DNA of 34,003 nucleotides from Candidatus Aquidulcis sp. (GTDB taxonomy: Bacteria; Chloroflexota; Limnocylindria; Limnocylindrales; Limnocylindraceae): positions 1 to 34,003 of the forward strand of contig QWRK01000004.1 in assembly GCA_003670455.1 (NCBI GenBank), in the 5' to 3' direction. A program made the position numbers and the translations under genes. Positions 16,081-18,966 of the stretch are shown piece after piece. The notes beneath the pieces were generated by a model. That model was not told where the DNA came from, made no database searches, and saw only the letters and a program-made list of their open reading frames with translations. Numbering within the stretch: the first letter of the stretch is position 1; every line of letters begins with the position of its first letter.

Positions 16081-16102
16081 CCCTGATGCATCCTCCGAGG
16101 CG

Positions 16103-16144
16103 CCGCCCCTTCCGGAGCGGCTGGTGGCCCTGGCGTTGCCAGGG
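16103..16144 (-). promoter_or_regulatory. Two tandem hairpins in rpsP leader
   Basis: Minus-strand CCCTGGC-AAC-GCCAGGG (16128-16144) and CCGCTCC-GGAA-GGGGCGG (16103-16120, GNRA loop). Confidence 0.55.
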
Positions 16145-16157
16145 GGTCAGTCCGTGA

Positions 16158-16163
16158 ATCCTA
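16158..16163 (-). promoter_or_regulatory. Candidate -10 (TAGGAT) for rpsP
   Basis: GGCTAGGATTC on the minus strand, same TAGGATTC string as upstream of rpsB and rpmF. Confidence 0.45.
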
Positions 16164-16199
16164 GCCGCTCAGCGGCTCGGGCGCATCTCTCCCCGTGGA

Positions 16200-17633
16200 C
16201 TAGCGCCGTTTGCCACCCTTTTTGGCCCGCTTCTCACGCTTCGCCGCCTTGGGAGGGATCCGCCCGCCGGCGTGCTTGCCAGGGAGGCCGGCCCCACCGC
16301 CCATCAGCCGGCTCGGGTCTCCGCCGCCAGCACGTCGCATCAGGGTCCGCATCTCCTCAAGTCGCTTGACCAGCCTGTTGACCTCCTCGATGGCTCGCCC
16401 AGCCCCTGCGGCAATGCGCCGACGTCGTGGCAGGGTCAGCAGGGCTGGGTCGCGCCGTTCGGCGGGGGTCATCGAGAGGATGATCGCCTCTGTGCGCTTC
16501 AGTTCTCCGCTGGCGACGGCGGCTTCCGCCTGCTCTGCCATGCCGCCCATACCCGGAATCATCTTGACCACCTGGCCGATCGGTCCGAGCGACGACATCT
16601 GACGGAGTTGACCGAGAAGGTCGTCAAAGGTCATGCCGCCGCGCAGCGCGCGAGCCTCTGCCGCCTTCGCACGTACTTCAGCGTCGGGTGCTGCCATCGG
16701 TCCAATCTCTGCATCTCGAACGCGCTCTGCCAGCGTGGCGAGATCACCCATGTCGAGAATGCGGTTGGCGATGCGCTCGGGATGGAATCGCTCCAGCGCA
16801 TCGGAACGCTCGCCGGTACCGACGTAGACCACGGGAATTCCTGCACCGCCGGCGATAGAGAGCGCGGCCCCGCCGCGTGCATCGCCGTCAAGTTTGGAGA
16901 GGATCAGGCCGGTCGGTTCGGCGATTGACTTAAACCCTTCGGCAATCGCCAGTGCTGACTGCCCCGTCGCCGCGTCAAGCACCAAGAGGCGTTCACGTGG
17001 CTTCGTGGCGTCGCGGAGATCACGCAACTCCTCCAGCAGCTCATCGTCGAGGGTGGTGCGACCAGAGCTGTCGATGATCACCACGTCAAGGCCGAGACGT
17101 CGGGCGGCAGCAATCGCGCGCGTTCCGATCTCTGCGACCGGAGTGCCGATCGGTTCACGATGCATGGGCACCTTGATGGCGGCGGCCAAGGTCGCAAGCT
17201 GCTCTGCCGCTGCTGGACGACGAGGATCGGCGGCAACGAGCAGCGGACGGCGACCATCTTTCGCCAAGCGATAGGCAAGCTTTGCGGCCGTTGTTGTTTT
17301 GCCTGCACCTTGCAGGCCGAGCAGGAGGATGGTTGCCGGTCGCTCGCGCAGGTCAAGGTCGCGACCAGATCCGCCAAGCGTTTCCGTTAGCGCGCTGTGC
17401 AGGATTCCCAGCATGCGCTCGCCAGCGCCGAGACCGCCAACGATCTCACTTGCGCGTGCCCGCTCGCTGATGCGCTCCAACAGCTGCGCGACAACGGGCA
17501 TCGCAACATCAGCGCCGACCAGTGAGGTGCGGATGTCGGCAAGGCCGGCCTCAAGATCGGCGGCACTGATTCGCCCACTCCCCGTAAGGCGGCGAAGTGA
17601 GGCCCGAAGACTGCTACCGAGCGCGTCAAACAT
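16200..17633 (-). CDS. ffh: Signal recognition particle protein (SRP54)
   Basis: LLLGLQGAGKTTTAAKLA, AADPRRPAA, DSSGRT, LDGDARGGAALS, M-domain ending in basic tail. Confidence 0.98.
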   Translation of the reverse strand: MFDALGSSLRASLRRLTGSGRISAADLEAGLADIRTSLVGADVAMPVVAQLLERISERARASEIVGGLGAGERMLGILHSALTETLGGSGRDLDLRERPATILLLGLQGAGKTTTAAKLAYRLAKDGRRPLLVAADPRRPAAAEQLATLAAAIKVPMHREPIGTPVAEIGTRAIAAARRLGLDVVIIDSSGRTTLDDELLEELRDLRDATKPRERLLVLDAATGQSALAIAEGFKSIAEPTGLILSKLDGDARGGAALSIAGGAGIPVVYVGTGERSDALERFHPERIANRILDMGDLATLAERVRDAEIGPMAAPDAEVRAKAAEARALRGGMTFDDLLGQLRQMSSLGPIGQVVKMIPGMGGMAEQAEAAVASGELKRTEAIILSMTPAERRDPALLTLPRRRRIAAGAGRAIEEVNRLVKRLEEMRTLMRRAGGGDPSRLMGGGAGLPGKHAGGRIPPKAAKREKRAKKGGKRR

Positions 17634-17639
17634 GCCTAG

Positions 17640-17649
17640 AGTGTACGCT
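17640..17649. promoter_or_regulatory. Shared divergent -10 region for ffh (-) and MFS (+)
   Basis: AGTGTACGCT contains TACGCT (+) and TACACT (-), each separated from its ATG by exactly 6 nt; TTGAGC (17662-17667, minus) is 16 nt from the ffh -10. Confidence 0.5.
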
Positions 17650-17655
17650 CGCGCG

Positions 17656-18966
17656 ATGGCAGCTCAAAAACGAACCCCGAAGGGGCAAGGCGGACTCCAG
17701 GACCTGACTCCGCTCGTGCGCAGCGACGTCAACGTGCTGATCAGCGCACAGGCGATCTCAACCTACGGGTCATTCATTACCCGGGCTGCCCTCCCCCTCC
17801 TGGCGATCATTGGCCTCGGGATCAACGCAGCCGAAGCGGCCGCCCTTGCGGCGGTCGACCTCATCGCTGGTGCCGTGGTGAGCCAGTTCGCAGGCGTGTG
17901 GATTGACCGACTCCCCCGCAAGCCCGTGCTTATTGGCACCGACCTGCTGCGGGCGATCTTGCTCGGCACCATCCCACTCGCCGCTGCTCTGTTCGGCGAA
18001 GTAACCCTCCCCCACCTGATTGCGGTGAGCGCCCTCTGTGGCATGTGCGCAACGACGTTTGACATCGCAGAGCGCAGCTATTTCGCTGGACTGGTGAACT
18101 CCTCGGCGCTGCGTGCCGTGTTGGCCCGCACGTTGGGAATCCGTGGCGCGGCGGAGTTCTTCGGCTTCGGCTCTGCCGGACTCCTGGTTGGCGCCTTCGG
18201 TGGACCTGCGGCAATTGGTATTGATGCGTTGACCTACGTGGTTTCGGCGGTGCTGATCGGCTTCCTGCGTGTCGCGGAGCCGAAGCTGCCGCCAGCCTCT
18301 GCCCGAGCCAGCTTCCGCCGCGAGCTCTCCGACGGGCTGAAGAAAACCTGGTCTGTCGCGATCATGCGACCGTTGCTCATCTCGACCTTCGTGATCGGTC
18401 TCTACTTCGGACTCTTCCGCTCTTCGTACCTGCTCTTTGTCACGAACGGGCTCGGTCTTGGACCAGAGGCGATCGGGCTAGTCATCGCAACGGGCGGCAT
18501 CGCCGCCTTCCTTGGCGGAGTACTCACGGAACGCATCTCCAACCTCCTCGGTGTCGGGCGTGCGATCTCCGTGAGCCTGGCGATCGTGGGCTTTGGCCTC
18601 ATCCTTGTACCGCTCGCGCCAGGTGCAACAGTCCTTGGATTCGCCATGCTCATCGGACACCAGTTGCTCAGCGATGGCTTTGAGACGGTGTGGGAGGCGA
18701 ATCAGGCGGCCATCCGTGGACGCGTGCTACCCGCCGCCTTTCAGGGACGCGCAAACGCCGCAAATGATGGCGTCGGCATCCTCGGTCGACTGTTGGGGAT
18801 CATCGTTGGTGGTGTGATCGGGAGCTCTGTGGCCGGGAGCGGCGTTGCGCTCTTCGTGGGTGGTGCTGCCTCTATCGCCGTCGGCCTCTTCGTTGCAGCC
18901 TCTCGTCTGGGAAGGATCCAGTCGATCTCGCAGATTCCGGCGTCAGGAGCCCGTAGGCGCGCCTAG
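17656..18966 (+). CDS. MFS transporter (EntS-like / MFS_3 type)
   Basis: MAAQKRTPKGQGG...VNVLISAQAISTYGSFITRAALPLLAI...; about 12 hydrophobic segments, DRLPRKPVLIGTD loop. ORF track starts at 17299 inside antisense ffh; ATG 17656 is the first plausible start. Confidence 0.88.
   Translation: MAAQKRTPKGQGGLQDLTPLVRSDVNVLISAQAISTYGSFITRAALPLLAIIGLGINAAEAAALAAVDLIAGAVVSQFAGVWIDRLPRKPVLIGTDLLRAILLGTIPLAAALFGEVTLPHLIAVSALCGMCATTFDIAERSYFAGLVNSSALRAVLARTLGIRGAAEFFGFGSAGLLVGAFGGPAAIGIDALTYVVSAVLIGFLRVAEPKLPPASARASFRRELSDGLKKTWSVAIMRPLLISTFVIGLYFGLFRSSYLLFVTNGLGLGPEAIGLVIATGGIAAFLGGVLTERISNLLGVGRAISVSLAIVGFGLILVPLAPGATVLGFAMLIGHQLLSDGFETVWEANQAAIRGRVLPAAFQGRANAANDGVGILGRLLGIIVGGVIGSSVAGSGVALFVGGAASIAVGLFVAASRLGRIQSISQIPASGARRRA

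Follow-up and report, generated by a model that had tools for sequence, protein, structure and literature searches.

The analysed stretch of DNA (the window) covers positions 1-34,003, forward strand, of contig QWRK01000004.1 from Candidatus Aquidulcis sp. (GCA_003670455.1). The genome belongs to Limnocylindrus / Ca. Aquidulcis, streamlined freshwater Chloroflexota, and is an 872-kb MAG of 62 contigs with a GC content of about 64%; the host organism is known here from MAGs alone. The signal recognition particle (SRP) gene ffh heads a minus-strand run that continues with rpsP, a RimM-like ORF and trmD, and it diverges from a gene for an MFS transporter, beyond which lie ftsY (minus strand) and an SMC-like ORF. 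The RimM-like and SMC-like ORFs were named by reading their translations by eye. The MFS protein has weak similarity, below the cut-off, to TIGR00900 (H+ antiporter protein). Between ffh and rpsP (16081-16199, minus strand), a TAGGAT box and, after it, a leader containing the hairpin CCTGGC-AAC-GCCAGG lie before rpsP, a possible internal promoter and S16 leader; upstream of rpsP in G015 and G016, a -10 (TACTAT) is kept together with a similar element (TTGGCGACCGCCAGG). Rfam had no match within the window. The features are summarized in Table 1.

Table 1. Features of the ffh/MFS intergenic region, the flanking genes, and further loci of the same design. Positions refer to the window unless a locus is named.
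Feature	Position	Strand	Remarks
Putative bidirectional element, whole start-to-start gap (6+10+6)	17634..17655		GCCTAG AGTGTACGCT CGCGCG
Near-palindromic core AGTGTACGCT, two overlapping -10 hexamers with common TA	17640..17649		9/10 columns invariant; unique in genome
-10 hexamer TACGCT of the MFS gene, 6-nt spacer to ATG	17644..17649	+	spacer 6 in 18/18 genomes
-10 hexamer TACACT of ffh, 6-nt spacer to ATG	17640..17645	-	spacer 6 in 14/18, 7 in 4/18
TTGAGC, -35-like box originally proposed for ffh, judged coincidental	17661..17666	-	lost in divergent relatives
MFS transporter, 436 aa from ATG, PF07690, predicted leaderless, +1 = 17656	17656..18966	+	RTG at same place in 18/18
ffh, 477 aa, SRP54 N/G/M domains, predicted leaderless, +1 = 17633	16200..17633	-	N-terminus MFDALG conserved
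6+10+6 locus: NTF2-like gene and 598-aa gene			
6+10+6 locus: polyprenyl-synthetase-like gene and recO-like gene			
6+10+6 locus: two related divergent CDP-glycerol-transferase-like genes	L188 1997-2024 (G015:C6)		putative 22-bp double-leaderless element; several genus genomes retain it

The ffh start codon (CAT, minus strand) ends at 17633 and the MFS ATG (plus strand) begins at 17656. The two hexamers in the gap share the TA at 17644-17645, which is read on both strands. The core follows the plan A-N3-TA-N3-T and is a near-palindrome with one mismatched position pair; T-12, A-11 and T-7 are present in both directions, as ANNNTANNNT, in 18/18 genomes. The original prediction had given the gap sequence, its coordinates and the TANNNT hexamers 6 nt from both ATGs exactly, and its symmetric -10 common to both genes corresponds to these overlapping hexamers with the same TA, kept in the genus. 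The 360,481 sampled bases contain 508 TANNNT on one strand, or about 0.0014 per position. By our own arithmetic, the chance of spacer-6 hexamers on both sides is about 2e-6 per divergent pair and roughly 2e-4 over the genome's approximately 85 divergent pairs, a pair number that is extrapolated. There is no Shine-Dalgarno (SD) sequence before the MFS start, for which the absence of a good one had been stated; the weak AGG that had been pointed out before ffh is present but is not kept in relatives. Since 6 nt lie between each hexamer and its ATG, the expected +1 is the A of each ATG (17656 on the plus strand, 17633 on the minus strand; predicted separation 23 bp), and both mRNAs would be leaderless.

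Genome-wide statistics were obtained from 360 kb of sampled stretches of this genome (L064-L083 and the window), with genes called by a simple codon-usage gene caller. TANNNT before candidate starts peaks at spacers 6 (44 matches) and 7 (15), with about 2 matches at most other spacers; the enrichment at spacer 6 is approximately 20-fold. SD-like words form a separate peak at spacers of about 4-8 nt, which indicates that both modes of initiation coexist. A leaderless -10 was present at 58 of 320 genes (~18%), before ATG in 51, GTG in six and TTG in one, and the preferred hexamer among these genes is T-A-S-R-M-T. TANNNT precedes 32 of the 70 divergently oriented genes (46%) against a background of about 1%, whereas only eight of 143 genes (6%) lying less than 20 bp behind a co-directional neighbor, i.e., operon-internal genes, have it. 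This contrast is the behavior expected from a promoter signal. As judged from the placement of TANNNT, leaderless initiation is a genome-wide habit. The original prediction had assumed that leaderless mRNAs are common in high-GC lineages; in this genome, leaderless -10 placement is frequent, and the leaderless starts on both sides of the gap, which are likewise predicted here, use the spacer that is common genome-wide. In the same sample, TANNNT is about four-fold depleted overall (508 occurrences where base composition predicts 2195). CTAG is depleted about six-fold (204, 1209 expected), and GATC is over-represented (3126, 1209 expected).

The comparison set consisted of the 18 of 19 genus genomes, the window's own included, in which ffh was found. 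In 18/18 of these genomes, which belong to one genus and are not independent, the same divergent MFS/ffh pair flanks AGTGTACG[C/T/A]T. A comparison of the gap geometry in relatives, which had been set earlier as a check, returned 6+10+6 in 14 genomes and 7+10+6 in the four genomes of one clade (G008, G015, G016, G017). The spacer of 7 nt is on the ffh side, so the ffh mRNA in this clade might carry one extra base; the MFS-side spacer is constant. The loci were then oriented, and conservation was scored by column over 12 distinct genus elements. Column 9 alone varies in the core, all 12 flanking columns are variable, and the downstream MFS codons vary too; the probability that nine invariant columns of 22 all fall inside the core is 2e-5. 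Because the element is conserved across the genus, purifying selection on the element itself is suggested, rather than a by-product.

The variable core column corresponds to position -8 of the MFS hexamer and is not part of the ffh hexamer. G010 has TACGTT as its MFS hexamer, and the T that it carries at -8 departs from the genome's A/C preference at that position. The full invariance of the ffh hexamer beside this variation would fit a promoter that is real in one direction only, probably that of ffh with TACACT, the other hexamer being a by-product of -10 symmetry and the MFS gene being transcribed or started elsewhere. Near-symmetry is inherent in TA-rich -10s, and bidirectionality can therefore arise incidentally (PMC10268837). 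We nevertheless consider a single active direction unlikely: the MFS spacer is 6 in 18/18 genomes, the RTG is kept there although adjacent codons change, and the only other TANNNT for the MFS gene within 200 bp is TAGAGT, 13 nt away.

Conservation of the core could also reflect protein constraint, if the MFS gene started upstream, at the ATG at 17632 or the GTG at 17641 within the core, and the core were coding. In the window genome, both codons share the reading frame of the MFS gene, and an MFS-side spacer of 6 preserves the frame. However, the ATG is not in frame in the clade whose gap is 23 bp, and in G009 and G012 an in-frame stop comes after it; in two genomes an in-frame TGA (from the ATATGAGG spacer) stands directly upstream of the MFS start. 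No SD precedes either alternative codon. Both the residues that the spacer would encode and those of the MFS N-terminus are highly variable, whereas the RTG codon is constant, alternating between ATG and GTG at the same place amid diverging codons. A coding core is therefore extremely improbable, and the upstream starts were ruled out as candidates, being out of frame or stopped in relatives.

The core is almost perfectly conserved beyond what TANNNT needs (a G, a C and a further G are also fixed), which is a point in favor of the palindrome being an operator at which a DNA-binding protein regulates both genes, and resembling two -10 boxes only secondarily. Yet AGNGTACNCT occurs once in the 872-kb genome, and the uniqueness of the core argues against the operator of a regulon; a regulator with multiple targets was discarded because the sequence does not recur at other promoters of the genome. 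A 10-bp site is also short for a dimeric regulator, and both -10 spacers equal the genome-wide leaderless optimum of 6 nt. An operator is decidedly unlikely on these counts, though a regulator dedicated to the ffh/MFS promoter alone may exist.

Two ordinary divergent promoters, each with its -35 box inside the opposite gene, would be a further explanation. The TTGAGC that had been put forward as a -35-like box for ffh is indeed present at a 16-bp spacer, and in the window genome, as in its nearest relatives, four of its six bases agree with the consensus. But about 13% of random sequences contain an equally good match by chance, and TTGAGC is confined to the closest relatives, whose MFS N-termini are almost the same; in divergent relatives the best matches are 1-4 of 6, at other spacings and with other words. 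The MFS gene has no -35. TTGAC occurs in 0/58 leaderless promoters of the sample, and the upstream columns of these 58 promoters hold no -35 signal. As TTGAGC is neither conserved nor typical of other leaderless genes, the -35 was rejected, and ordinary promoters at this gap are very unlikely.

The sequence evidence makes it highly probable that the gap is a bidirectional promoter that relies on -10 elements only, belongs to the known 23-bp class and yields two predicted leaderless mRNAs. We infer a minimal sigma-70-type promoter without -35 elements, whose single 10-bp near-palindrome holds both -10s. RNA polymerase would bind in either orientation, singly, and would initiate 7 nt downstream of the hexamer, which in both directions is where the ATG begins; the leaderless mRNAs would then be translated by direct recognition of the start codon. 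A TAGGTT 126 nt upstream of ffh counts against this explanation, as a promoter elsewhere could also serve ffh. With a shared -10, the two polymerases would be mutually exclusive; because competition at a shared bidirectional -10 is weak at basal activity in E. coli (PMC12825309), the coupled expression of SRP and transporter that had been inferred is not implied by the anatomy. The anatomy points to a shared promoter, from which joint regulation of secretion and transport does not follow.

The design appears at other loci of the genus. The pattern CAY-N6-ANNNTANNNT-N6-RTG had 44 matches in the 19 genus genomes compared with 13 for the reversed control, and 36 compared with 28 in the 42 genomes of the sister family, which are roughly three times as large; these are our own sums, and copies of a locus in related genomes do not count as independent. 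In addition to ffh/MFS, long open frames flank the element on both sides at three conserved 6+10+6 loci (Table 1; genes named from translations read by eye, not from database results), so that at least three other genus loci would have this design. An element of the 18-bp class (5+7+5) lies between a conserved MTAN-like/CapA-like pair, likewise named from translations. The second 6+10+6 match in the window's own genome, C1:36725, was rejected: its right-hand GTG opens a frame of only six aa, which would make it a one-sided leaderless gene. Adjacent, non-overlapping hexamers (6+12+6) were absent from the genus.

In the sister family, the MFS gene is also divergent to ffh in G046, G053 and G059, but across a long gap. 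Most of the sister-family ffh genes inspected have a TACACT-like -10 and a leader of roughly 70-100 nt with a conserved hairpin, GGUG-U-CGC-CAGAACCC-GCG-CACC (AGAAUCC loop in fen genomes), at, e.g., L114 ~2910-2990, L022-L026, L028-L033 and L113-L130. A covariance model of this hairpin (R1) had exactly one match per genome, just upstream of ffh, in 28 of 42 sister-family genomes, and 0/19 in Limnocylindrus. Stem pairing holds in 92.5% of cells, covariation is only moderate, and the hairpin has no match in Rfam; it is a candidate cis-regulatory RNA of the SRP gene. The simplest history would be that the streamlined genus lost the ffh leader but retained the -10, which now abuts the ATG, the compact promoter form presumably arising during genome streamlining. 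In a Dehalococcoidia MAG from Lake Baikal (L139, just before 3001), TACACT stands exactly 6 nt before the ffh ATG, a leaderless-looking ffh in another Chloroflexota class. The Ffh of CAMAXG010000008.1 (L105), titled Thermoflexus hugenholtzii JAD2, is 99% identical to that of the window genome; the organism name looks wrong.

The closest known systems are the bidirectional promoters with a symmetric -10 described by the Grainger laboratory (PMC10268837, PMC12825309), whose common start-site separations are 18, 10 and 23 bp (PMC12825309). The ffh/MFS element resembles them in its overlapping opposite-strand -10s, which are enriched between divergent genes, and in its predicted separation of 23 bp; such promoters are defined by divergent start sites that lie 7-25 bp apart. 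The ffh/MFS element differs in that both predicted start sites fall on start codons, so that neither side would have a 5' UTR and the promoter would fill the intergenic region. TANNNT leaderless genes are known from several lineages (Zheng et al. 2011, PMC3160421; Deinococcus-Thermus, PMC12340547; M. tuberculosis, PMC3898074). As in these, the first T lies 12 nt before the start codon, there is no SD and no needed -35, and the high-GC form carries little information in its middle positions; Deinococcus and mycobacterial leaderless genes also have 6 nt between hexamer and ATG, with the +1 at the A of the ATG (PMC12340547, PMC3898074), as predicted here. Unlike in known TANNNT leaderless genes, the -10 is common to two divergent genes. 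Leaderless genes make up about 4-6% in the four Chloroflexi genomes with any detected by Zheng et al. (2011, PMC3160421), compared with the ~18% of our sample. A literature search combining leaderless and bidirectional terms matched a single paper, on archaeal annotation.

Limnocylindraceae have reduced genomes with short intergenic spacers (median 12 bp) and few sigma factors (PMC13212565); the word "promoter" is absent from the main text of that paper. In the same lineage, the leaderless bidirectional design would be one way in which short spacers carry promoters. For Limnocylindrus as a whole, we regard as evenly balanced the proposal that a shared -10 exactly 6 nt from both starts (17- and 22-bp gaps) is a recurrent, selectively maintained gene-pair unit: a minimal divergent promoter with no spare intergenic base, arisen by streamlining (at ffh, where an ancestral structured leader would have been lost) and with built-in mutual exclusion of the transcripts. 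For start-codon annotation in the lineage, a TANNNT 6 nt upstream would mark the start. The predicted element unites bidirectional -10 symmetry with leaderless mRNAs, both of them known phenomena, in a very small divergent promoter. With no UTR or -35 to confound the outcome, it would allow competition between polymerases for one -10 to be studied cleanly in a natural setting, and it offers a concrete promoter architecture for streamlined genomes with such short median spacers.
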